Shown here: positions 4,356 to 51,837 of the stretch, piece by piece
How the letters are laid out: the number at the start of each line of letters is the position of its first letter
Numbering within the stretch: position 1 is the stretch's first letter
Source of the DNA: Branchiostoma lanceolatum
Taxonomy: Eukaryota; Chordata; Leptocardii; Amphioxiformes; Branchiostomatidae
DNA: 64,000 bases
Direction: 5' to 3'
NCBI RefSeq assembly: GCF_035083965.1
Contig: NC_089738.1
Coordinates: 17,803,734-17,867,733 of the forward strand
Position numbers and translations under genes: made by a program
Notes under the pieces: generated by a model
Databases searched by the model: none
What the model was told of the DNA's origin: nothing
The model's input: the letters and a program-made list of their open reading frames with translations, nothing else

Positions 4356-5708
4356 ATGAAGGATGTGCAGTACCGCCAGGAGGCGCCAGATGGCGGTTGG
4401 GGCTGGTTCGTCGTCCTGAGCAGTTTTCTCTGCCACCTCTGTATCGTGGGCGTCGCCAAGTCGTTCGGGGTCTTCTTCCCGTACTTTCTTGAGACGTTCG
4501 GAGAAGACGCCAGAAGTACATCTTGGGTGAGCTCCATCCAAGGGGCCACCTGTCTGTTTGGATGTAAGTTTTTCCTATTTGCCTTCTCATTGTCTATCGG
4601 TATGGCTCGTGTCTAACGGTATATCACACGAAGAAGCGATATTAATTGCATTGGGGCATTTCGTTCTCCATTGCTTCAGAAATGAGCGAAACAGAACATA
4701 TCCACTTTTTCTTCAATTATCATGCGAACAGGATAGCCACTATAACAATATTGTACTATAAATCCATCATTGGCGGATTTTGCCGGTGCCCTTACGAAAC
4801 TTTCTCCTAGAAAACTCCTCTAGATTCGAACCGAGTGGAGTTTAAGGGCGCGGGTTCGAATCTGCGTAGGAGAATGTTACCAACGTATTTGACTGAATTT
4901 TATTCTCTATTGCTTCCAAAAGAAGCGACATATCTAGTAGTTTTGCTTCATTGTGCCATCTCCATTCCCATTTTCTCCTCCCCAGCGGTATTTGCGGGCG
5001 CACTGACTAACATCTTCGGCTGCAGGGCGGTGGTGATGGCGGGAAGTCTGATCGCAGCTTCCGGTCTGGTCTCCAGTTTCTTCGTCACCAGCCTAGCTGC
5101 CATGTACGTCACCACGGGGTTTATCACAGGTAAGCCACAGCTCACAACTTTGGTAAGGGGCACGGTCAAGTCTTAAACACTGTACAGACTACAGACCAGT
5201 ATCTTTTGCCCGATACTAGCATCTCCTTTTCCACTAGACGGCGATTACTGAGCGGCCAAAAGTAGATTAGTGTTGCTCTTGATTTTATAATACATTGTAG
5301 GGTGTACTATGAAAAGTATGATTTGAAAGACACAAATGACACTTTATTAATCAAATAGTTGACCGTTCAGCCGCTAGTGGAATGTGGTTTCATATTACTA
5401 CTATCACCTTTGAAGATTTACATGCCAGTAACCTGCAGTTTGAAAAGAAGCTGCTAGGGGTGGGTACCATGGGATGGGGATGATTTCATTGCAGTAAGAC
5501 TCAGTTTACTGGATCATTTATCCTGGTAGGCCAACGTGCAAATAGATATATAAAGCATTTTTGATATCCGGCCTCCTTGGCAGAAGTACTAGACCCTAAA
5601 GATCCCTAAAGTCATATTTATAAACTTCTCTCTTTTTTTCTTACAGGTGTTGGCTTCTCCCTAATGTACACCCCGTGCCTGACTATGGTGGGGAGGTATT
5701 TCAAGAAC
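4356..5708 (+). CDS. SLC16-like monocarboxylate transporter, 5' part (exons 1-3a), exon 3 interrupted by a transposon
   Basis: This is a major-facilitator, twelve-helix plasma-membrane transporter of the monocarboxylate family. Exon 1 (4356-4563) carries the family signature at the first helix, APDGGWGWFVVLSSF, then SFGVFFPYFLETF. Exon 2 (4986-5129) encodes FGCRAVVMAGSLIAASGLV. Exon 3 starts at 5647 with GVGFSLMYTPCLTMVGRYFKN and stops being host sequence at 5708. Phases (1, 1) are consistent across all introns. The frame is cut exactly inside the conserved motif before helix 5 (YFxxRRxLAxG), and resumes at 18257. Joining 5708 to 18257 gives YFKN-RRALANGLG and a total of 465 aa over four exons, the usual SLC16 length. 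The substrate cannot be predicted. In this haplotype the gene is expected to be inactive. Confidence 0.85.
5704..5708. repeat. Target-site duplication AGAAC, left copy
   Basis: AGAAC directly precedes the left terminus of the large transposon. The same five bases follow the right terminus at 18252-18256. One copy belongs to the SLC16 codons for Lys-Asn. Confidence 0.85.
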
Positions 5709-6277
5709 CACGGGGTATAACGTACGTCACGGGATGGCCAGACACATTCGGTGGTCGCAGAGATCTATCAGCCGAAACGCGCAGACACATTCAACGCGCC
5801 GCAGAAAAATCAGCCGTCCGCGCGGACCAATCAGCTGCAACGCGCAGACAAATTCGACACCGCGCGAACCAATCAGCCGCTCGCGCAGAAATTTCAGCCG
5901 TGGGACAGCGCCACCAGCTGTCTCACTACTGCCTCCAGAGAGCGCTTGAAGGCCCGCGCCAAGGTAGGTCCTCCACAATTTCCTTCTCTAGCGTCATATA
6001 GAGACATCGACTGGTCATCCAACTAGGCCTATCAGGTGACAGACTATCTTAGGGTCATCCGGAGCCAAAAATAATCGGCAGGTCTTCAATTTAAATCGAG
6101 ATATAGGGAGAACAGTTGTAGAACAGTGACATCACACATCAAAGTTATCAAGGTAAACAAACGCCAAACACCGCATTTTGGGCCATTAGAAGTAAAGACA
6201 TCGTCAGAGTTGACTATATTTACTGAAATTGGGTGCCTAGAGCAACGTAACATTACTTTGGAACCGACATTATATGC
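5709..6277 (+). repeat. Left terminal inverted repeat (569 bp)
   Basis: It pairs with 17683-18251. The outer 200 bp are CpG-rich and contain a 63-bp tandem unit (starting at 5768, 5831 and 5894) with TCAGCCG/TCAGCTG motifs at 5768, 5810, 5831, 5873 and 5894. Two of these sit within CCAATCAG. Such subterminal repeats are typical transposase-binding arrays, and CCAAT boxes could also serve as promoter sites. These functions are inferred. Confidence 0.85.
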
Positions 6278-6299
6278 AGGATATGCCTAAATTGCGATA

Positions 6300-8362
6300 G
6301 AAGTCTTCAACTTATACTACTTCAACTTATACTACCCCCAGATAACCCCGCGAGGGGCAAAGTAGGGGGGGAGGAGGTCCCAGGCTAAGGCGGGCAGGCC
6401 TCCAGCCTGGCGCGGAAAGACTCAACGGTGGGAGCCGTAACAACCGCGCCAGGCAGGGCGTTCCACTCGGGTATGGTGCGGGGGAAGTATGAGTATTTGT
6501 AGGAGTCTGTTCGGGCGTAGAGTGGTTGAAATTTGAGCGTGTGGCTTCCCCGGGTGCGCCCCTGGGCTGGTTTCAGTAGACTATCTGTATTAATATTGAT
6601 ATGGTTATTAACTAGCTTATAGAAAAAGGTGAGGCGGGCGTTCCTCCTCCTTTCAGAGAGAAGGGTCCACTGCAGGTCATTGAGCATTTGTGTCACGCTG
6701 CTAGTCTGCCGGTAGTCATTCAGAGTCACTCGGGCGGCCCTGCGCTGGACGGCCTCCACCGTCTGTATCCCTTTGGTGGTGTACGGGTCCCAGACGGTGG
6801 CACTATATTCCAAGTGGGGCCGCACCAGCGCTTTGTAACAAGTGGCCTTGACCCTAGATGGACAATGGGTCAAATTGCGCCGAATGACCCCTAGTACCCT
6901 GCCGGCTTTGCTAGTGGCGTAGTTGATATGGGTGTCCCACCGCAGATCGTCGGACAGTTGTACTCCAAGATAGGGGTGGGACTTGACACCGGTGAGGGCT
7001 TCTCCACTTAGGGAGTACTGGGTTAGAATGGGGTGCTTTTTACGGGTGATATGGAGGATGTGGCATTTAGAGGGATTGAACGACATAAGCCAACGATTTT
7101 GCCAATCTGTTAACGCATCAAGATCAGACTGTAGACCTTGTGCGTCAGAAGGCGTGCTGATAGTTCGATAAATCAAGCAATCATCGGCAAATAATCGAAC
7201 GTGTGAATCTACGGAGCTGGGGAGGTCGTTAATATACAGTAGAAAGAGCAAAGGGCCTAACACTGTACCCTGAGGGACTCCAGAGGTGACCCTGACAGCT
7301 TTAGATGTTCCGCCGTCAAAGACAACCCTCTGGGTTCTCTCTGTTAGGAAGGCCCTAAACCAAGACTGAAGAAGGTCAGAAATGCCATAGTGCTCGAGCT
7401 TGCTCAGCAGCCGCTCGTGGGGCACGGTGTCGAATGCCTTGCTAAAGTCAAGCACCGCGACATCGACCTGTTTGTTATGGTCAAGATTGTTGGCCAAGTC
7501 TTGGAGGGTGAGTACCAGCTGGCTCTCACAGGACAGACCCTTCCTGAAACCGTGCTGCGCCGGGGACAGAACGCCATGAGTGTCAAGATGTTTCATCATG
7601 TGGCTGTGCACGATGTGTTCGAGCACTTTGCCACAGACCGATGTCAAAGACACCGGCCTATAGTTGGAAGGCATTGTTCTGTCACCCTTTTTGAAGATTG
7701 GAGCGATGTTAGCTGTTCTCCAATCCTCAGGTACGTCTCCCGTAGATATTGATTGGGAGAATATTGTCTGTAGTATTGGCGCAATTTGCTCGGCAACAGT
7801 TTTCAGGAGGCGAGGTGGTATTCCGTCTGGTCCTGTGGACTTGCTGGGATTAAGGCTAGAGAGCTGTTTGGCTACCCCCTCCACTGAGATGTTAAGGGAG
7901 GGGATAGTTGGAACTACGGATTCGCCAAGGGTAGGAACGGTAGATTTATCCTCCCTGGTAAACACTGACTCAAACTGGGCTCCCAGTGCATCAGCCTTTT
8001 CCTGGGGGTCAGATGTTAGCACCCCCTGGTGTCTAAGGGCTGATGCACCAGTAGAGTCCTGTCTGAGAGATTTGACATAGCTCCAAAAGGCCTTGGGATT
8101 ATCCTCGATGTTTGTCTCAAGGTAGTTGGAAACATAATCCCTATGGGCCTTCCTAACTCTCTGCTTAACTCCCTTCCTACACCTCTTGAACTTTGCCCAG
8201 GCTTCATGGGAGTTGGATCTCCTAGCCTTGGAAAAAAGTTCAGACCGCTTACGAAATGCTTTGCGAATCTGGGGTGTTATCCAAGGTTTGCTAGATTGTG
8301 GCCTCACTCGTTTCCTGGGAACATGCTTATTGGCAGCACCATTATTGCTTATTAAGTCAGAT
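6300..8362 (-). mobile_element. 5'-truncated non-LTR retrotransposon (LINE, CR1/Jockey-like) nested in the transposon
   Basis: The element lies just inside the left TIR, in minus orientation. Its 3' end, at the left, has a short direct repeat (CTTCAACTTATACTA twice, 6311-6340), the kind of simple tail seen in CR1/L2-type LINEs. Sequence right of about 8363 resembles the stretch just inside the right TIR (a CGCCCCCCTCCCCC tract, then GTGTAGAGC), so the LINE seems to have landed inside a formerly longer inverted arm. The apurinic endonuclease domain is absent, as expected for 5' truncation. No clear target duplication was found. Confidence 0.75.
6385..8307 (-). CDS. LINE reverse transcriptase (C-terminal 640 aa of ORF2)
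   Basis: The open frame encodes a reverse transcriptase with the block order of non-LTR elements: STGPDGIPPRLLK, then KKGDRTMPSNYRPVSLTSV, then QHGFRKGLSCESQL. LDFSKAFDTVPH carries the first catalytic aspartate, SGVPQGTVLGPLLFLLYIND follows, and LFADDCLIYR is the FADD catalytic box. The C-terminal thumb region contains HLEYSATVWDPY and NDLQWTLLSERR. The FADD box and these blocks fit the Jockey/CR1/L2 group. The frame is uninterrupted over 640 codons but lacks the N-terminal endonuclease, so the copy could not retrotranspose independently. The open frame implies recent insertion. It is nested in the larger transposon and read opposite to the YqaJ gene. Confidence 0.85.
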   Translation of the reverse strand: MRPQSSKPWITPQIRKAFRKRSELFSKARRSNSHEAWAKFKRCRKGVKQRVRKAHRDYVSNYLETNIEDNPKAFWSYVKSLRQDSTGASALRHQGVLTSDPQEKADALGAQFESVFTREDKSTVPTLGESVVPTIPSLNISVEGVAKQLSSLNPSKSTGPDGIPPRLLKTVAEQIAPILQTIFSQSISTGDVPEDWRTANIAPIFKKGDRTMPSNYRPVSLTSVCGKVLEHIVHSHMMKHLDTHGVLSPAQHGFRKGLSCESQLVLTLQDLANNLDHNKQVDVAVLDFSKAFDTVPHERLLSKLEHYGISDLLQSWFRAFLTERTQRVVFDGGTSKAVRVTSGVPQGTVLGPLLFLLYINDLPSSVDSHVRLFADDCLIYRTISTPSDAQGLQSDLDALTDWQNRWLMSFNPSKCHILHITRKKHPILTQYSLSGEALTGVKSHPYLGVQLSDDLRWDTHINYATSKAGRVLGVIRRNLTHCPSRVKATCYKALVRPHLEYSATVWDPYTTKGIQTVEAVQRRAARVTLNDYRQTSSVTQMLNDLQWTLLSERRRNARLTFFYKLVNNHININTDSLLKPAQGRTRGSHTLKFQPLYARTDSYKYSYFPRTIPEWNALPGAVVTAPTVESFRARLEACPP

Positions 8363-8630
8363 CGCTATGCCGCCCCCCTCCCCCCTCTTGTTGTGTGTAG
8401 AGCTATTAGTTACGGCCTTTTCCCGATAATAACGTACATATATAGGGTACCTACCAGCTGAGGTTTAATGTGAACATAAGTCCTGAAGTCTTTGTTACTT
8501 TTATTGTTTTGCTACAATTTCTGCAAGGATGTTCTTCATACGTGTATTCATAATGGCACACTCGTAATGCCCTGGTTTGCCACTGCAAATATTCTCATTT
8601 TACATATATCTACCTTGACTTTTTTCAGAA

Positions 8631-11600
8631 ATGCCTCGTCGACTTAGACTAACACTATACCCACGTAAAACGTGTAAAAGCAAATCAGGAGCACAAAAAG
8701 CAAACGCACAACATACGAATGATGCAACATGCGATGATGGCTGGGTAACAGAGGAAGAGGATGCATTTCCTGTTCTTGAGAGCACGGAAAAAAGTCCCTA
8801 CTCACCATGCAGGAAGAGAAGTCGAAAGAGCCTCTATTCAACCCCTCGCAGGAAAGCAAAACGGAGCATACAGAGTCCCATCACTCCTGTGTCTCAAAAG
8901 AGCAGAGTACGAAAGAAAATACGATTTGGGACACCAGTGAAGTCTGATGACGTGGGCGTCGACTTATTTGAGTTCGATGAAGTGTCAAGAACCAAAGAGA
9001 AGGAAACACAGACATCTGCTGGAGATGTTCGGGACGGTATGGATGCAGACTCTACAGCGTTAGTTGATGAGGTTTTGAACGAGATGATAGACTTACTTCC
9101 AAAAGTAATTCTGGAACTAAAGCATGCAGATTCCAGTAAAAAAGACATTCTGCTCCGTTTCTGTCGCCTAGTTGAAGAGGGTGAGTTTCCGCTGGACAAC
9201 ATTTCCTTCCACCTCTGGTGCGAAGTAGTTCAGTGGTATGGCTTGGACACAAGCTCTGAAATGAGATATTCTCCTGTCACCAAAAGTTTCTGGAAATTAG
9301 GATGGCGTTTGTTTGGCGGTAGGTTCCTGAGACTCATGAGTGGAAGCAGAGGAATAGGGCAGGTGGTGTCAGGAGAGGCCAGTATTGGACTCTGCCACAC
9401 AAAATCATCAACGATCAACTTTGCTGTTCCAAGTGTTGCAATGCTGTCCAACTTCCAACCATACGGAAACTTTCCCAACACTATCAGCCCAGGATTCATT
9501 GAGCAAATGGTAGTCTTGGCTAATGAAACACTCAAAGGGAAGTCCTGTTGTTTAGCCTTTGATGGCAAGAAGATAGCCCCAGGACTAACTCAGAACAGTG
9601 GTGATATCGACCTGCTAGGCCATGAACAGCTTCCAGAGAAATCTCTTAAGGAAAGGAAATCAGCTTTGAATGAGGACATTCAAAAGGTACAGTCTTTGAT
9701 GGATCTGGTTTGCACAATTCAGTCACAATCAGGTATTACAAGTAGTGACCAGTTGGACGACCACTCAAAGAGAGCATTGTTTGATGAGCTATACAGCTTG
9801 TTTCAGCTGCTGAGCATGAAAAGTGCTGAGTTAAGGCACCTGAAGAAAAAGAAGGAATTCGCATTAAAGTCATTCAAAGCAAGAGGGGGCAGTGACTGGA
9901 GAAAGTCGAAATACATCTATGTAATCAGTGCATTACACACAATGCTCAATCAAGTGCAAGAGTGCACATTTACGTGGACAACTGTCAGAGAGAAACTATG
10001 TCATTGGTTGGCAATCTTAAACAATGCTGGAACCACATTCATGCCTGGAACTGTGGTACGACTGACAGAGCAAACCAACTACATCAGTCTACAGAACATT
10101 GAAGAACTACATGACAGACATGGAGAGCCTCTAGTTGAGTCACTGCAAGATGGCGACATACAGACGAAGGTTGATACCAGAGAGATTCCACAAGGAACAC
10201 CAGAATGGCACACAATCAGATCGTCAGCAAGAGTGACAGGTAGCCAGCTGCACAGGGCTCTTGGCTTGGAGTCATTGAAGGCACAAAAAGAGTACTTTGA
10301 TCGTGCAATCAAGAAAGTCATCAACCCTCCTTCCTTTTCAGAAGAACAGGAGAGAGCAATGGCTCATGGCATTGAACATGAAGTAGATGCAGCTGCAACA
10401 TTGGCCTCAAAGGTCCTTCCAGCACTGGAACCTAATCTGCAGGTGTATGAAGAAGGTTGTATCATCATGAAGCAGGACAATAAACCGTTTCTAGTTGTTT
10501 CCCCTGACAGGAGCCTTAGATCTTCAAGAAACTGTACGGTGAGTGCTGTTGAGATCAAATGTCCATATACAGCAGATGTACATGACAAGATTCCATTCAG
10601 GTACTTAAGTCAGCTACATGCTGAAATGGCAGCACTGCAGTGCCCTGTTCTACTGTACTTATCATATAAAGCAGACTGCACAAATGTCTTCAAGGTCACT
10701 GCTGATACAGGACTATGGGCAGACATATGGAGTGCAGCTGTCAGTCAGTATGGTGGAAGTAAACCAGTAAAGCCCACACATCTGACCCCCGAGTCAAAGT
10801 CACTGAAGCAGATGCTGAAGGAGAAAGCAGAGACAGTTGAGTTCCTTGGTGAGTTCCCATCAGTAACTGCAGTAAGGGAACCTCATCTATCATCCACTGT
10901 GACCTCTGGTTCTGTCAGGGTGAACACACTGGCACTTGAAGAACTATCCACTCTACTAATGTCGGTGGAAAGGCTAATAAATGAACACTATCAGTTGAAC
11001 AGAAAGAAGGCATCTGAAGTGGTTGTGCAGATTGTTGGGAATCTGGACAGAGAATGGTCAATGGAGCAAACTCATGGTTTCCCAACAAACTATTTCCTAA
11101 AGGGGTATAGCCTGACTTCAGAAGTAATGAGAAGCATAGTCGAGGAAAATCACCAGAAGTGTCATGACATTGGAATCCACATTCCATGCCGGTCATTTGA
11201 TGGGCAGTGGAGGCAGCTTCTTGTACGAGACAAGAATGGCAATCCACTCACTCTTCTACAGTTGCAGAAAGACATCTGGAAGGAGGTGTGTGGTCAGAAG
11301 AAAAGGGCAATTGTAGAAGACTTGAAAACCATTCCAGCCCTGGAATGGGTGGTAGAGAAAGATGGACAAACAGGAAAATCTGTCATCAGAGTAAGGATGC
11401 AGAACAACCTTCCCTTTCCCACTACAGCTGCTGTGGGATGGAAGACCCAAGATACCAGCACATCACAGGAGTCAAGTGTCAGGGCTGACACTACTGATGA
11501 TGACACCTCCCTCTTACCCATGTTAGACACATTACCTCTGGAGTCTGGATCCCCTTCAGATAATGCGGCAGGCAACAGAGACGCAGCCTTCAGTGCATTG

Positions 11601-14207
11601 GATGAGATTTCAAGGGAATTACAGAATAATGATGCTGATGCTGATAATGTTGGCCATGTGCACAGCCAACAGCCAGACACCAACAATGAGGAAGAGATAG
11701 AGCAGACGGACACTGATGAAAGTGTGTATGCAGAGCCTGACCAGCCGCAGACAGAGGAGCTTGATTGTGAACAAACACACATGGCTGATCAGCAAAATCA
11801 TCAGCTAAGTGAATCTGAATTCAGAGAAATCCTGGAACAACTGATACAAGATGAAAAGGCTAATGTTGATCAGCGATGGAACAATCAGAATCTTGAAGAC
11901 TTCAAAGAGAAATTTACATCTGCTGCAGTACTTGACTCTTCATTCCGAAATGTTGACCTGAACTGTATAGTGGAGTGTTTGAAATCAGATGTAAAAGAAT
12001 GTGAAGCGATCATGCGGAGCTGGCCTAAATACAGGAAAGTAAATGCATTGTCGGATATTCTAGCAGATGGCTCACATGTTGAAGTGAAGAAGAGGAGGAC
12101 CAGAGTAACTATGCCATTGTCAGTCCTGTGTGAAAAAGTACTCCTGTCAAATCAGTACCCCAAGCAAGCTCTTAATGTAACCTTATCAGAATATAAGTAT
12201 GCTGTAAAGCAGAAAGAATGGGAAGAAACAAGTGCTATCAGCAATGATGTAAAAGTGGAAGGAACAAATGACCCTGCAGCATGGTTCTACAAGCCTGAAT
12301 TCAGTTCTGAAAGATCCCAGCTTGAGGTAAGCTGCATTGATGGTGACCACCTTCTGACCCGATGGCGAGCACATTGTGCCAGAGGAAATGTGAAGAGAAT
12401 CAAAAGGGATGCCTGGATCCAAGTTGCCAAGGACAGAACAACAAACCTTAACATTAGCATGGTGGAGGACATGTTGGATGCACAAAGTGTGCCTATTGCA
12501 TGCACATTCTTCAGTAGGCAAGTTGAAGAGAAGATGGTACACATGGGATTTGACAGGGAAGCATGCTTTGTCAGACACATCAGGGAAGGTTTGATTGTGG
12601 CACATGATGATTCTGGCATTTCTTCATCAGACCGAGTAAAGATGCGTTTCAGACTAAGGACATACTTGATGGTGGGGGTTAACTTCCACAGATTCCCACC
12701 TCCAGGAAGATACATATCAAGTCTAGGGTGTCCATGGCAACTATGGGAAGATACTATTGCCAGCATTGATGCACACATGCTGCTGTATCCACTTGTGCAA
12801 CAAGGTAGCTACAATCAAAGGGCATTCTCCAGCTTACTTTGTGAACAATTCTTCAGCGAAATGACAGGGGATGACAAAACGGGACATCAAGGGACACTGA
12901 CAGCTGGTGAACTGACACGTCACTTTGGAGCTACCTGTGAGGTGCTTGCAACCAGGCTGAATCCACATCGGTCGGTGGCTTTCATTTTTATTATACAGAT
13001 TAGTACTGTACTTTCCTTCCTGTACATCATCCCAATGTTTTTGTTGACTTGCAGGGATTCCTCTATTGACAGCATTTCATGCAATATATGACTTTTTGTT
13101 CATGATATAAATTCAGGAATACAATGTCAGCACCTATTAGTACAGTTTCTATCATACCGGTTTGTATGTAGTCAACGAATTGTAGGAAATCTTTAAGTCT
13201 TGAAATATACATCCTTCACTTCAGCATATTAAAAAAATACAGCTAAACATTGGGCTATGATTAGTATGAAGAACTTGATTATTACAATTAATCAGATTCA
13301 ATATGCCCAATACTCATTTTTTTCCAGGAAGTGGGACATGAGAACAAAGAAGTCATCTGTGTATCCAGTGGTGACTGCTGAGCCCAGACATGCCTGCTCC
13401 TCCATGAAGAAAGACACATGCCTGTCCCTGGACAAGAAGCACATACTTCAAATCAGACCAAGGTAAGACTGGCCAACATCAGGTCAATAATGCTCTGACT
13501 TGCAAGTAATGACTTCTCCCTGAAGAAAACACAACATTGAAGGTAAAATGTTTCAAGAGACCTGATTAGATGCCTGGCAGACTTTGAAGAAATGCATAAA
13601 AATGCCCATTCCACCTCAGTCTATTTTGAAGGGTCAGTATCTTGTCTGTACTTGCTTCTAAATGGAGTGTATATGGGGGCCTTCAGGCATTTTTGTTCCC
13701 CATGGTGCATTGTGTGGTGCCTGGTTGTTATCTGTTATTGTTTATTTTGAAGGGTCAGTATCTTGTCTGTACTTGCTTCTGAATGGAGTGTATATGGGGG
13801 CCTTCAGGCATTTAGTTCCCAATGGTGGCTTGTGTGGTGCCTGGTTTTTATTTGTTATTGTTGTGATGTCAAGCCACATGCCCTTTGATAGTCCTGTTGT
13901 AAGAGTTTGTGCTACATATGTATAATTTTATTTACACTGAAAAATGGCTAGAATCTGACAGAATGATGCAACCATTTTTAAACTGAAAAATGGTTAGAAT
14001 CTGACAGAATGATTTAACCACATTTGCATTCTCTATTTCCACAGGAATCATGTGTTTGACCTGATAAGAAGGAGAAAAAGCCAGCGAAAATCAGGGCACA
14101 TATCAGGTCCAAATGAGCCAGCACGTGGGGCACGTGGGGTTCGACAGCATCATCGCATTGACGAAAGCAAATTGCTGCCTTCAACAAGGGCTGGGATTGG
14201 ACTTTAA
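8631..14207 (+). CDS. Transposon-encoded giant protein with YqaJ/lambda-exonuclease domain (1545 aa, 3 exons)
   Basis: Exons are 8631-12970, 13328-13462 and 14045-14207; donors and acceptors are GT-AG and all phases (2, 2) agree. An AG acceptor (TTTTTTCAG) just before the ATG suggests a spliced 5' leader. Residues ~1-160 are basic, Ser/Lys-rich and nuclear-looking. At ~200-260 lies an SPVTKSFWKLGWRLFGGRF block. At ~305 CLAFDGKKIAPG followed by GDIDLLGHE may hold a first catalytic Asp. Residues ~520-690 form a YqaJ nuclease: GTPEWHTIRSSARVTGSQL, AMAHGIEHE, VVSPDRS, VEIKCPY and YLSQLHAEMAAL, so the Glu, Asp and Glu-x-Lys residues are all kept. At ~855 comes SFDGQWRQLLVRDKNG, then a long acidic linker, and at ~1404 LLCEQFFSEM, a candidate final Glu. 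Recombinase or transposase function is inferred from context. I do not recognise the family beyond the nuclease core. Confidence 0.8.
13626..14030. repeat. Short tandem duplications in the third intron region of the transposon gene
   Basis: A unit of about 122 bp occurs twice (13626-13747 and 13748-13870; it contains GGGTCAGTATCTTGTCTG and GGGGGCCTTCAGGCATTT). A ~48-bp unit follows twice (about 13935-13980 and 13981-14030; AAAATGG, TAGAATCTGACAGAATGAT). Both lie in the intron between the second and third exons and break no coding sequence. Confidence 0.7.
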
Positions 14208-14669
14208 CTTTTATAGGATTATTTTTTATAACCAGTTGTAGATATCAAGCATCAAGGACACCTTTTCTGGACTGCAGGAGCTCCGTTGATATGAAAGGCA
14301 AAGGAAACCATACAATGTACAACTGGAATATTGATTTAACTCGGTATTTTCAGTAGAAATCTATATTCATCGGTATTTATTGAAGAGGGTATTCATCAAT
14401 TGCTGTGATAATACATTTAAGTTTGCATGTTTTTTTTTTAAATTTTGTGTTAGGCAGGAAATGGTGGTTTTAAGTTCGAAATAATCATAGCGCTTTTATG
14501 GTATACAGCCATATGCGGCCAAAAAGTACAAACATAAAACCACCGCGAACGCTTCTGTACTTACAGTATCTGAAATCGCACATGATATTAGATGAAGACA
14601 TTGAAGATGATATTTGTCAGGTTGTCATATTTACAGATTTAAGGAATGGACCATCTCAGCCTTGCATCA

Positions 14670-15110
14670 TTTTGCTGAATTGTAATGCGATGTTCTTGTT
14701 CTTGTTATATATCATGTGACAAAGATGACAAAGATGACTATACAGTAATCATATTGCACGGTAGCTTGATTCATAGCTATTAATTACAAAATATCTTCTG
14801 ATTGTTTACAAAATATATTTTTGTTGAATTGTAATGCGATGTTCTTGTTCTTGTTATATATCATGTGACAAAGATGACTATACAGTAATCATATTGCACG
14901 GTAGCTTGATTCATAGCTATTAATTACAAAATATCTTCTGATTGTTTACAAAATATATTTTTGTTGAATTGTAATGCGATGTTCTTGTTCTTGTTATATA
15001 TCATGTGACAAAGATGACTATACAGTAATCATATTGCACGGTAGCTTGATTCATAGCTATTAATTACAAAATATCTTCTGATTGTTTACGTTCTTGTTAT
15101 ACAAATATGT
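14670..15110. repeat. ~140-bp tandem repeat, three copies
   Basis: Unit starts lie near 14672, 14821 and 14961. Each has TGAATTGTAATGCGATGTTC, then ATCATGTGACAAAGATGACT, CACGGTAGCTTGATTCATAG and AATATCTTCTGATTG. Copies two and three are essentially identical; the first has an extra short GACAAAGAT duplication. The array lies between the two convergent transposon genes. Confidence 0.85.
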
Positions 15111-15319
15111 TTGCTGAATTTTAATGCCATCTTCCTGATGTTGTTGTATAGATCACCTGAGAAATGGTTATATTGCAATCAAAAGGCACTGTAACTTGAC
15201 TCTCGAAAAAAATGAACAAAGTCAACACCAGTTGAATACAAAGTCTCAGCGCTGTCACTTTCCTGAATGCTAGAGACGAAAATATGGCACTGTACAAAGC
15301 ATAACCAAATTAACCAGAA

Positions 15320-15605
15320 TAACTACCTCATCTACATATTGTCAGGTGCATAACGCACAAGGTATTTCTTCTTGTAAAACTAACAAACGTAACTAAGCAA
15401 GCCAGAATTACACCTTATCTACATATTGTCAGGTGCATAACGCACAAGGTATTTCTTCTTGTAAAACTAACAAACGTCACTAAGCAAGCCAGAATTACAC
15501 CTCATCTCCATTTTGTGAGGTGCATAACGCACAAGGTATTTCTTGTAAAACTAACAAACGTAACTAAGCAAGCCAGAATTACACCTCATCTACATATAGA
15601 CAGGT
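15320..15605. repeat. ~85-bp tandem repeat, three to four copies
   Basis: The unit contains CTACATATTGTCAGGTGCAT, AACGCACAAGGTATTTCTTC and GTAACTAAGCAAGCCAGAA. The last copy runs into the 22-bp array at 15600. Confidence 0.8.
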
Positions 15606-15720
15606 GCATGATTACATGTGGACAGGTGCATGAAGATTACATGTGGACAGGTGCATGATTACATGTGGACAGGTGCATGATTACATGTGGACAGGTGCAT
15701 GATTACATGTGGACAGGTGT
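15600..15720. repeat. 22-bp tandem array abutting the zinc-finger stop
   Basis: About six copies of GATTACATGTGGACAGGTGC-AT. On the minus strand the first copy encodes the last codons of the zinc-finger frame (Pro-Val-His-Met-stop), so the array appears to have been seeded from the end of finger 8. Confidence 0.8.
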
Positions 15721-17367
15721 GTGATGATCAAGTTCTTCCTGTCTATGAAACTTGTGTCCACATTTGTCACAGACATAGTTCTTTACTCTCGGATTGTCAT
15801 GGGTTTTGCGGTGACGTTGCATTACTTCTTTTGTCTTGAAAGATTTTCCGCACAAGTCGCACAAATGATCCCTATCGGAGTGAACTCCCATGTGTTTCTT
15901 CAGATACTGCCTGCACTTAAATTCTTTTTGGCACACAGGGCACTCCTTAGGGGACTCGACTGACTTTCCTACAGCATGGACGTGTTTGAGATGTGTTGTT
16001 AGTCCTCTCCTGTACCTAAATAGCTTACGGCAGATGGTACACTGGTGTGGAGTGGCTCCAGAGTGGACAGCCTGATGATCCTTCAATTTAGCATCTGATG
16101 TGAAAAACTTGTGGCACTGTTGACATTTATGACCATCAGGGTCATGTATTCTCCTGTGAGCATACAAGCTTGACTTATGCACATATCGTCTACCACACAC
16201 TAAACAGGCAAATCTTTTCTCCCCTTCGTGACTAGCTACATGATCATGAAAATCCCTTGCGTAAATAAAGTCCCTATCGCACAATCTACACTGATAGGAT
16301 GGTCCTTTACCAGTGCCATGGCATCGGCGTTTGTGTTCGGCTAGTGAGCTGCTGTTTGCATAGCTCTTGCCATGGGTGCACAGACTGCACTGTAGTCCTT
16401 TGCGTTTGGGGACATCAGCCACACTAGGAAGGTCATTGTACCCGTTAGATTCTTCTGAAGATGTTGACCCTTCACTGGTACTGGAACTTGTACTGGATCC
16501 GCTATTGCTGGAACTTGAAGACCAAGCCCCATCCCCACGGTGTGAGATGTCAGTTGGAGGTGCTGGTTCCACGAGCACAGCTCTGTCTCCACGGTGTGAG
16601 ATGTCAGTTGGAGGTGCTGGTTCCACGAGCACAGCTCTGTCTCCACGGTGTGAGATGTCAGTTGGAGGTGCTGGTTCCACGAGCACAGCTCCGTCTCCAC
16701 GGTGTGAGATGTCAGTGGGAGGTGCTGGTTCCACGAGCACAGCTCTGTCTCCACGGTGTGAGATGTCAGTTGGAGGTGCTGGTTCCACGAGCACAGCTCC
16801 GTCTCCACGGTGTGAGATGTCAGTTGGAGGTGCTGGTTCCACGAGCACAGCTCTGTCTCCACGGTGTGAGATGTCAGTTGGAGGTGCTGGTTCCACGAGC
16901 ACAGCTCCGTCTCCACGGTGTGAGATGTCAGTGGGAGGTGCTGGTTCCACGAGCACAGCTCCGTCTCCACGGTGTGAGATGTCAGTGGGAGGTGCTGGTT
17001 CCACGAGCACAGCTCCGTCTCCACGGTGTGAGATGTCAGTGGGAGGTGCTGGTTCCACGAGCACAGCTCCGTCTCCACGGTGTGAGATGTCAGTTGGAGG
17101 TGCTGGTTCCACGAGCACAGCTCCGTCTCCACGGTGTGAGATGTCAGTTGGAGGTGCTGGTTCCACGAGCACAGCTCCGTCTCCACGGTGTGAGATGTCA
17201 GTGGGAGGTGCTGGTTCCACAAGCACAGCTCCGTCTCCACGGTGTGAGATGTTAGTTGGAGTAGGTGGGTCCACATCATGTGAGATGTCAGTTGGACTAG
17301 GTGCCTCCTGGAGGCTTGGTTTGTTGGGTAGAACAGGTTGTGTCACATTTGTGGTCAACTGTACCAA
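15703..17367 (-). CDS. Transposon-borne C2H2 zinc-finger protein with 14-copy 18-aa repeat
   Basis: The C-terminal ~270 residues hold eight C2H2 fingers, e.g. CLVCGRRYVHKSSLYAHRRI-H, CPVCQKEFKCRQYLKKHMGV-H and CDLCGKSFKTKEVMQRHRKT-H. The N-terminal half is an array of the 18-residue unit PTDISHRGDGAVLVEPAP (14 copies, some with Arg for the second Gly), followed by a Ser-rich linker. DNA binding in the nucleus is the expected role; its placement in the transposon suggests end recognition or regulation of the element, which is inference. The open frame reaches upstream to 17367 without an ATG, so an unseen 5' exon is likely. CAG-ending acceptor candidates lie at the upstream edge, next to a stem-loop at 17317-17390. 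Confidence 0.75.
   Translation of the reverse strand: MVQLTTNVTQPVLPNKPSLQEAPSPTDISHDVDPPTPTNISHRGDGAVLVEPAPPTDISHRGDGAVLVEPAPPTDISHRGDGAVLVEPAPPTDISHRGDGAVLVEPAPPTDISHRGDGAVLVEPAPPTDISHRGDGAVLVEPAPPTDISHRGDGAVLVEPAPPTDISHRGDRAVLVEPAPPTDISHRGDGAVLVEPAPPTDISHRGDRAVLVEPAPPTDISHRGDGAVLVEPAPPTDISHRGDRAVLVEPAPPTDISHRGDRAVLVEPAPPTDISHRGDGAWSSSSSNSGSSTSSSTSEGSTSSEESNGYNDLPSVADVPKRKGLQCSLCTHGKSYANSSSLAEHKRRCHGTGKGPSYQCRLCDRDFIYARDFHDHVASHEGEKRFACLVCGRRYVHKSSLYAHRRIHDPDGHKCQQCHKFFTSDAKLKDHQAVHSGATPHQCTICRKLFRYRRGLTTHLKHVHAVGKSVESPKECPVCQKEFKCRQYLKKHMGVHSDRDHLCDLCGKSFKTKEVMQRHRKTHDNPRVKNYVCDKCGHKFHRQEELDHHTPVHM
16528..17262. repeat. 54-bp minisatellite, ~14 copies, in frame
   Basis: The unit is 54 bp (18 codons) and contains CCACGGTGTGAGATGTCAGT and GCTGGTTCCACGAGCACAGC. 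Copies differ at two recurrent positions: CTCTGTCT or CTCCGTCT, and CAGTTGG or CAGTGGG. Because 54 is a multiple of three and the unit lacks stops in several phases, long false open frames appear on both strands. The strand with zinc fingers downstream is taken as the coding one. Confidence 0.95.
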
Positions 17368-17390
17368 CCTGTTCTACCCATCAAACGAGA
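17317..17390. repeat. Stem-loop at the upstream edge of the zinc-finger frame
   Basis: TTTGTTGGGTAGAACAGGTTG (about 17318-17338) is followed after roughly 25 bases by its near-perfect inverse CAACCTGTTCTACCCATCAAA (about 17366-17388). The loop contains GTCAACTGTAC. It may affect splicing or transcription of the zinc-finger gene, or be a residue of a small palindromic insertion. No function is proven. Confidence 0.7.
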
Positions 17391-17682
17391 ACTCCATGAC
17401 TGAAATGCAAATTCCAATAATAAATACCATTGTCTGGATAAACATTAATGACTATCCATCTTCATTTAAGTTACCACAACTATGTCTATAATAAATTCTA
17501 AGCATTGAGCTGCATGTTACCAAAATAAAGCTATAAAACAAAAACAACATTGACTCTTATGTCTTTTGGAACTGTTATAAGATATGTTACCATCGCTCTA
17601 CACGCACGTGGCTCGTACCGAAAAATGGGGGAGGGGGGCGATGTATACCGGTATCATTTCTCCACATATATTTTCATTGTAG

Positions 17683-18251
17683 GCATATAATGTCGGTTCC
17701 AAAGTAATGTTACGTTGCTCTAGGCACCCAATTTCAGTAAATGTAGTCAACTCTGACGATGTCTTTACTTCTAATGGCCCAAAATGCGGTGTTTGGCGTT
17801 TGTTTACCTTGATAACTTTGATGTGTGATGTCACTGTTCTACAACTGTTCTCCCTATATCTCGATTTAAATTGAAGACCTGCCGATTATTTTTGGCTCCG
17901 GATGACCCTAAGATAGTCTGTCACCTGATAGGCCTAGTTAGATGACCAGTCGATGTCTCTATATGACGCTAGAGAAGGAAATTGTGGAGGACCTACCTTG
18001 GCGCGGGCCTTCAAGCGCTCTCTGGAGGCAGTAGTGAGACAGCTGGTGGCGCTGTCCCACGGCTGAAATTTCCGCGCGAGCGGCTGATTGGTTCGCGCGG
18101 TGTCGAATTTGTCTGCGCGTTGCAGCTGATTGGTCCGCGCGGACGGCTGATTTTTCTGCGGCGCGTTGAATGTGTCTGCGCGTTTCGGCTGATAGATCTC
18201 TGCGACCACCGAATGTGTCTGGCCATCCCGTGACGTACGTTATACCCCGTG
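17683..18251 (-). repeat. Right terminal inverted repeat (569 bp)
   Basis: This is the reverse complement of 5709-6277, differing by eye at three bases and ending CCCCGTG at 18251. It carries the same 63-bp subterminal repeats in opposite orientation and is directly followed by AGAAC. Confidence 0.88.
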
Positions 18252-18256
18252 AGAAC

Positions 18257-24738: not shown

Positions 24739-38660
<13,922 letters not shown>

Positions 38661-49870: not shown

Positions 49871-50744
49871 TCTGTTTTTATTTTTGTCGTATTTCGACGT
49901 GTTTGTATTAAATTGTGTTGCTATCTACGCACAATGTTATTCTGGCTGTCTTCATGAGATATAAAAGACATCTACATGTACCCTGACTAAATCACGTTTC
50001 TATAGTGGCCGTTCCACTGGTCAGGCCACTAGAAGCTTGGTGACCAACACACGTGCAGGAGGATTAGAAACTGTCCGTTACCATGGTGTTGGAGACTGTG
50101 GTTACTAGTTGCCATAGAGACAGAGCATCCTGAGCTCCCATTGGACTGATTTTCATGGTGACTGAATCTCCTTTTCAAAACAAGAGTTCCACGACCTCAT
50201 ATCTCCATGAACAATTCTATTCATGCAAATGACTTACATATTTGCATAATATATGCTTGGTCATAAACTCTAACTTACACATGTTGCAATATTGACAGTC
50301 CTATAATTTTCCAATTAGATGAATTATGGTGTTTTTGCATTAATTATGCAAATTAGGAATTCATTTGTATAATTAGTATCTGTTGATGCTCCACTTTCCA
50401 TAAACTACATTACGTTACATGTATTTGAGTGTGATAATGGAAAACACTGCAAATATAGATTTTCCTCATTAGCTATGCAAATTAAGTCCCAATTAGCATA
50501 ATTTGCACTTCATTGTTTATATATCTATCTAAGCTACCTGCATACTAAATATCATGGAAAACCGTTGTTCCTTTGTTCAGTTATTCTCCTTAGAAGATTT
50601 TCACAAAAACGCCCCTGCAGTTCCAGAGGAAGCTGCTAGGGGGCCCAAACCTACACCACTTCTTTATTACATTACAAGCTATCAAAAATGAAGACCACAG
50701 CACGTCCAGGTCAAAAGATACAAAAATTGAAGTTCTGCTGCAGT

Positions 50745-50970
50745 ACCAAGGTCACATACCAGGGGGCCCAAAATCGACCTTGAACTTTGGCTTCACAACA
50801 CCTGCCCACATACCAAATATCATTGTAATCCATCAAGAGGTTCTTGAGTTATGCTGACTACAGTAGTGCGGAAAACACAAACAGACAGACAAACAAACAA
50901 ACAGACAAACACACACACAGACACACCCAAAACTATATCTCCATTTTTCATGGAGATAATCATCAAGTCT
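50745..50970 (+). repeat. Dispersed non-coding repeat, second full copy
   Basis: CATACCAGGGGGCCCAAAAT to TTTTTCATGGAGATAAT, matching 21937-22125 with an expanded ACAG/ACAA stretch in the middle. Confidence 0.65.
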
Positions 50971-51837
50971 CCTGGTTTACTGGGATGACTGTCAAAAACT
51001 GTAAAACTCGGAGGGACTCCGAGAAATGGACAGGGAGAGTTTCATGGTGGTGCACAAACTAATCAACACATAGTTCACACAGACACATATGGCGGATATC
51101 AAAATACAATTGGCCTACAGTCCACGGCGCTAGGAGGAGAGTGTTGGCGTTGGGTAGTCGTGTAAGATAGAATCCTTGAAATCGAGGGAGGCACTTTTTA
51201 AAGTTTCTGCACTGTCAGTTAATCCGATCTGCTATGAAATCAGAATATCATGTGTACGGATGTATGCTATCTTAGATGTACGTTTCCATTAATTCCGCAT
51301 CTTTCTTCTAAGCCGAAGAAAGCAAATTTACGGCCGATCATATTGAAATTATGTTTTTCAGCAATTTCAAGAGGAGATGGTAGCATGCCTGTAGTATCAC
51401 CAACTCTTGCGGGTGACCTTGAGAACTCTAGCTACAGCTGTGACGACGAAGGATACATTATTTCTATTCTTTACCACTTTGGAAGCCACTCTGGAAGAAA
51501 ATACAGCTGGTCAGAAGAAGCCATTTGTTCCTCTAGTCCCAGCTGAAAGTATGATGAGAGTGAGTCTATCACATGGCTGCCTTGTGAAGTGGTGAGTCGG
51601 CATGATATGGCCACACCGTGGACTGGCGGCCACACCATAACAGCTGTATGAAAACGTACCCTCGGCTTCTAACATACCTGGTACGAAAATGGTTTGTAGG
51701 GATTTCTTATTTCTTTGTTTCTCATACTTTTAAGATGTCCGAAAGTTAGTTTTTACTTCATGTGTCTAAAATTACGCGTCGATTGGTTCTTAATCAATGT
51801 TAGAAGTTAGCGTACGTTTACTTTCACTTTTGTTCAG

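Follow-up and report, generated by a model that had tools for sequence, protein, structure and literature searches.

What kind of mobile element has split an exon in the lancelet Branchiostoma lanceolatum, and what might the giant protein that it encodes do? The element spans positions 5709-18251 (12,543 bp) of the window, by which we mean the whole 64,000-nucleotide stretch of contig NC_089738.1 (assembly GCF_035083965.1) that was analysed, and all coordinates below refer to it. This is a genuine terminal-inverted-repeat transposon. We consider it likely to be an autonomous cut-and-paste DNA transposon whose RNase H transposase resembles that of the P superfamily (P element/THAP9-like). Judging from profile matches, about 450 residues of this transposase, including a YqaJ nuclease of the lambda-exonuclease type, appear to lie inside the RNase H fold, between the first and the second catalytic Asp.

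Ends of the element and the host exon

The boundaries are given by two repeats and a short duplication:
5709..6277, plus strand: left terminal inverted repeat, 569 bp
17683..18251, minus strand: right terminal inverted repeat, 569 bp, 3 mismatches versus the left repeat
5704..5708, no strand: target site duplication AGAAC, left copy (last bases of the left flank)
18252..18256, no strand: target site duplication AGAAC, right copy (first bases of the right flank)

The two arms align over their whole length without gaps, and the element begins with CACGGGG and finishes with CCCCGTG. At random junction pairs in the window, a 5-bp match is found with a frequency of 0.00118 (200,000 draws). The 22-bp tip, searched with at most 3 mismatches, is present at both ends of the element and nowhere else, thus without a third copy within the 64 kb (0 in 100 shuffles). 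Longer repeats within the arms did not stand out, their local alignment score being equal to the best of 20 shuffles.

When the element and one AGAAC are deleted, the flanks of this empty site join in frame as GFSLMYTPCLTMVGRYFKNRRALANGLGVTGTGPG and an open host exon is restored, namely GRYFKNRRALANG. The right part of the rejoined exon matches MFS_1 (E 2.5e-22), and the host gene is presumably an SLC16 gene, as an earlier note on this DNA had read it, in agreement with the motif. The same note had described a CAC-ended element of about 12.5 kb with 569-bp repeats differing at about three positions, a duplicated AGAAC, and host codons that rejoin across the insertion, all of which the alignments and the empty site bear out.

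The giant protein: a probable split RNase H core and a YqaJ nuclease

The plus strand of the element carries an open reading frame (ORF) that starts at 8631 and runs for 1486 codons. Joining three exons at consensus splice sites picked by eye reproduces the 1545-amino-acid protein that the earlier note had proposed. Its gene and the parts discussed here are the following:
8631..12970, plus strand: transposase gene, coding exon 1 (1447 codons; acceptor TTTTTTCAG ends at 8628)
13328..13462, plus strand: transposase gene, proposed coding exon 2
14045..14207, plus strand: transposase gene, proposed coding exon 3 with the stop codon (1545 amino acids in total)
9498..9641, plus strand: split RNase H match, segment 1 (residues 290-337, with candidate catalytic Asp311)
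9642..10991, plus strand: putative insert in the RNase H fold (about 450 residues, 338-787)
10203..10631, plus strand: YqaJ nuclease domain (residues 525-667; SPD, EIK and QLHAE motifs)
10992..11285, plus strand: split RNase H match, segment 2 (residues 788-885, with candidate catalytic Asp857)
12339..12350, plus strand: DGDH, a D(2)H-type motif (residues 1237-1240)
12843..12845, plus strand: candidate catalytic Glu1405 in CEQFFSEM, picked by motif and spacing

The nuclease is readily recognised, in agreement with the earlier note: the Pfam YqaJ family matches with an E-value of 1.5e-12 and 48.4 bits against a cut-off of 22, and motifs of the D...ExK type (SPD, EIK) are present. SPD, EIK and QLHAE contain residues of the type with which lambda exonuclease binds metal. 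The domain is presumably active. The NCBIfam model TIGR03033 also responds (E 5.6e-10), yet below its cut-off. In a sequence search of the PDB with the giant protein, lambda-type exonucleases came out best at non-significant E-values of 0.16-0.87, next to one unrelated chain at 0.72.

The evidence for the transposase comes from PF21787, the Pfam "TNP-like, RNase H N-terminal domain" of P-element/THAP9-like transposases, which has a curated cut-off of 24.6 bits. On the intact ORF, this profile matches residues 790-859 with 17 bits (E 0.0078), covering profile positions 64-126 of 137. We then made joined constructs, in which the region before YqaJ around LAFDGKK is fused to the region after YqaJ and the middle is omitted. 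Seven such versions scored 24.6, 29.9, 24.7, 23.1, 31.2, 18.8 and 28.8 bits, the best being residues 290-337 plus 788-885 (31.2 bits, E 3e-7). With the insert skipped, the P/THAP9-type core is thus recognised at up to 31.2 bits, and four of the seven joins (29.9, 23.1, 31.2 and 28.8) gave an unbroken match from profile position 20-23 to 126, running through the first Asp. The second segment by itself scores 19.1 bits. Control chimeras, made by shuffling the first segment or swapping it for another stretch of the giant protein, gave 17.7-18.5 bits in a first set (six of six) and 17.4-19.5 bits in a second set built on the best-scoring junction (ten of ten). As all 16 controls remained at 17.4-19.5 bits, the gain of about 12 bits can be attributed to the first segment in its place. 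The insert is placed within the RNase H fold because the profile matches in two segments that flank YqaJ.

The remaining candidate residues follow the P-type order: D311, D857, DGDH at 1237 and E1405. According to the excerpts of PMC8230255 and PMC7776569, the Drosophila transposase has D230, D303 and E531 with its D(2)H motif at D339, and human THAP9 has D304, D374 and E613 with D(2)H at D414. Measured against these excerpted positions, the D(2)H-to-E spacing is 192 residues in Drosophila, 199 in human THAP9 and 168 in the giant protein, the first Asp precedes the second by 73, 70 and 546 residues, and the second precedes D(2)H by 36, 40 and 380, respectively. The last two spacings are enlarged and so imply two inserts, the first of which holds YqaJ and the second an acidic stretch at residues 931-1065 (24% Asp plus Glu). 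Since two more [CD]xxH words occur in the giant protein (at 1146 and 1482), and since C/DxxH is common to five superfamilies in the excerpt of PMC9587614, the D(2)H motif counts as supporting evidence and is not specific to P.

Several observations weigh against a P-like transposase. On the intact protein, PF21787 stays under its cut-off (17 versus 24.6 bits), and the junctions of the joined versions were adjusted post hoc, after scores were known. One of the seven joins brought no gain (18.8), one remained below the cut-off (23.1), and in the two that are level with it (24.6 and 24.7) the best listed stretch comprises the second segment only. Glu1405 is based on motif and spacing. The GTP-binding domain of P had no Pfam match in residues 1124-1446 or 1230-1460, its C-terminal RNase H domain had none in the pieces tried, and THAP had none on the whole ORF (E ≤1), residues 1-490 being without any family at E ≤10. 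AlphaFold2 run without an alignment gave low-confidence models, with a mean predicted local distance difference test score of 35.1 for residues 190-890 and 34.7 for 1085-1446. Furthermore, a single copy is seen within the window, and the target duplication measures 5 bp, as opposed to 7-8 bp in the P superfamily.

Place among known transposons

How, then, should the element be classified? Its likeness to the P superfamily (Drosophila P element, Galileo, zebrafish Pdre2/THAP9) consists of the match to the RNase H N-terminal profile and of D, D, D(2)H and E in equal order with a similar D(2)H-to-E distance; with Galileo it also shares long terminal inverted repeats (excerpt of PMC4168063). It differs from the superfamily in its 5-bp duplication (8 bp for P and Pdre2 and 7 or 8 bp for Galileo in the excerpted sources), in that no THAP domain was found, in its second, zinc-finger gene, and in the sequence added to the protein, with the YqaJ insert (about 450 residues) separating the first Asp from the second and the stretch from the second Asp to D(2)H being longer by about 340 residues. 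The element probably works like a P-type cut-and-paste transposon, yet it is not filed as a P element because of the 5-bp duplication and the lack of a recognised THAP domain.

The alternative that survives best, though we hold it to be unlikely, is a separate DDE superfamily, whose kinship with P, Kolobok, Dada, hAT and MuDR goes no further than the general RNase H fold and C/DxxH, with PF21787 responding because the nearer superfamily lacks a Pfam model. The short duplication, the THAP domain that was not found and the two inserts would all fit, and a C/DxxH motif spread over five superfamilies (again in the excerpt of PMC9587614) does not single out P. Against this, PF21787 is the sole transposase model that Pfam lists, whether the whole protein or its pieces are scanned, and it passes its cut-off once the insert is skipped, for which reason the data favour a divergent lineage related to P over a new superfamily with no such kinship. 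The earlier note had argued for a different, possibly undescribed superfamily, on the grounds of the YqaJ nuclease and the lack of a RAG-like core; in view of the P/THAP9-like match this is not supported in that form, though the 5-bp duplication does set the element apart.

Less probable still, and in our view improbable, is that the giant protein acts as an accessory nuclease or is carried along as cargo, the true transposase having been lost or acting in trans. Such an arrangement has a model in ISL2EU of the PHIS superfamily, an animal DNA transposon in which YqaJ sits on a second, separate ORF beside the transposase (excerpts of PMC4482050 and PMC9179366). The other scanned proteins of our element are a reverse transcriptase and a zinc-finger protein, however, and ISL2EU inserts at A|AT|T, usually has GG ends and averages about 4.8 kb (excerpt of PMC4482050), as opposed to CAC ends and 5 bp here. 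ISL2EU itself is ruled out as the identity of the element by the 5-bp duplication, the CAC ends and the absence of a PHIS-type transposase ORF among the ORFs scanned. KolobokP, reported from three Branchiostoma species, likewise combines a DDD/E transposase with a nuclease and has a second gene on the opposite strand (excerpt of PMC9587614), but Kolobok elements make TTAA duplications, and their nuclease, a His-Me finger, is encoded by a gene of its own.

The convergent gene pair, which the earlier note had also reported, leads to a further candidate and consists of the transposase gene on the plus strand and the following ORF:
15703..17367, minus strand: C2H2 zinc-finger ORF with 7 fingers and 13 copies of an 18-amino-acid repeat

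Transib/ProtoRAG elements start with CAC, make 5-bp duplications and carry convergent genes, and our element is like them in all three respects. Even so, a RAG/Transib (ProtoRAG-like) origin is very improbable: neither protein has a RAG1-like or RAG2/Kelch-like family in Pfam at E ≤1, and the giant protein has the P-type match instead. The earlier note had likewise seen no RAG-like core. Finally, a large inverted duplication or an assembly artefact resembling a transposon, for which one could cite the single copy in a single sequence, is scarcely credible, given that the exact repeat ends coincide with the 5-bp duplication and an in-frame empty exon.

Searches for relatives of this P-like transposon were made in collections of viruses, plasmids, bacteria and archaea, and their misses therefore say little about its spread in animals. 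The giant ORF found nothing by tblastn at E ≤0.01 in 50,697 phage and 72,556 plasmid records, and a pattern search for related loci matched viral contigs 2 times and genome contigs 9 times without turning up a relative. Back-translated motif scans of the prokaryote and virus collections returned 55, 3 and 6 loci (two further scans were empty), and against all 64 of these the 1545-amino-acid protein reached a best tblastn E-value of 0.88. Three protein fragments each drew one irrelevant weak match from the PDB, PHROGs gave two weak matches (E 0.034 and 0.78), PADLOC gave nothing at E ≤0.01, and the remainder of the window gave a best E-value of 3.5. A catalogued Repbase or Dfam entry for the element is quite possible. 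In open-licence PubMed Central text, we found no description of a YqaJ domain inside a transposase fold.

Putative promoters, age and proposed mechanism

Besides marking the ends, the repeats may serve the two genes. Their outer 250 bp have a GC content of 0.60 and a CpG observed/expected ratio of 1.35, with CCAAT at repeat positions 119 and 161 and a splice donor, AAG|GTAGGT, at position 255. On the left side, the acceptor TTTTTTCAG lies two bases 5' of the transposase ATG. The features involved, including an element nested within the transposon, are:
5709..5963, plus strand: putative CpG-rich promoter and 5' exon in the left repeat (CCAAT at 5827 and 5869; donor AAG|GTAGGT after 5963)
17997..18251, minus strand: putative promoter and donor in the right repeat (donor at 17997)
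6308..8484, minus strand: nested long interspersed nuclear element (LINE) with reverse transcriptase ORF at 6385-8307 (RVT_1 E 8.1e-35)

Each repeat would thus drive one gene inward, the 5' exon ending at the donor inside the repeat. The LINE would lie in the first intron and be tolerated there. It measures about 2.2 kb, so that, with this tentative LINE boundary, the transposon minus the LINE comes to about 10.36 kb. An 8-bp word, GAAGTCTT, stands at 6300 and 8485 as a possible duplication flanking the LINE (the chance level of such a shared word is 6.6%). For the zinc-finger ORF, no start codon was singled out from the listed acceptors, which were read by eye. A 54-bp tandem repeat at 16417-17418 encodes its 13 copies of the 18-amino-acid unit, and a 35-bp inverted repeat (83% complementary) is found at 17306-17399, at the upstream end of the ORF. 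Between the convergent genes, at 14726-15728, there are tandem arrays with units of 140, 87 and 22 bp.

The body of the transposon (8631-17400) shows CpG depletion and raised TpG/CpA, and its outer repeat is CpG-rich. Eight 1-kb bins from 9001 to 17000 have a mean CpG observed/expected ratio of 0.33 and a TpG/CpA ratio of 1.49, compared with 0.83 and 1.14 for the 49 bins outside the element; the nested LINE has 0.62 and 1.06. A second CpG-poor patch (0.27) lies outside the element, at 50001-51000. Despite a ratio of 0.29, the first transposase exon is open over 1447 codons, which is consistent with selection on the protein. We infer a lineage whose body was long methylated, whose ends were unmethylated and whose reading frame was kept. 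Near-identical arms of terminal-inverted-repeat elements, unlike retroviral ends, give no insertion date; the intact halves of the host exon suggest that the insertion is recent. The earlier note had called the transposon fresh, which is possible for the present copy, but the lineage must be old, given the heavy CpG depletion of the body.

Elsewhere in the window, positions 32107-35311 hold what we take to be a Penelope-like retroelement. Its reverse transcriptase ORF (32245-34596, minus strand; RVT_1 E 9.5e-6, below the cut-off) is flanked by inverted arms of 733 bp with 100% complementarity.

How might the P-like transposon work? The 569-bp repeats would have two roles, being bound by the transposase and acting as CpG-rich CCAAT promoters. 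The 1545-amino-acid protein would cut both ends by means of Asp311, Asp857 and Glu1405 and join them to target DNA at positions staggered by 5 bp. YqaJ, placed between the strands that bear the first and second Asp and thus adjoining the active site, would most likely trim or resect one strand at the donor break or at the transposon ends, thereby steering gap repair. The zinc-finger protein could be captured cargo or an end-binding accessory factor, the latter being suggested by the N-terminal part of the transposase, which has no recognisable DNA-binding domain.

A bolder claim, possible if on balance doubtful, is that the element represents an unnamed superfamily of animal transposons, whose RNase H fold has taken up a phage-type exonuclease beside the active site, so that one polypeptide both excises the element and processes the broken strands. 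If true, the nuclease would sit elsewhere in the fold (compare the excerpts of PMC7776569 and PMC8230255), cutting and strand processing would be united in one protein, and an exonuclease within the RNase H fold could accompany the 5-bp stagger and the large size. It would also provide a testable model of a transposon that steers the repair of the gap it leaves behind. Moreover, YqaJ-bearing transposases might account for part of the YqaJ domains counted as viral in animal genome papers (e.g., in the excerpt of PMC7826175).

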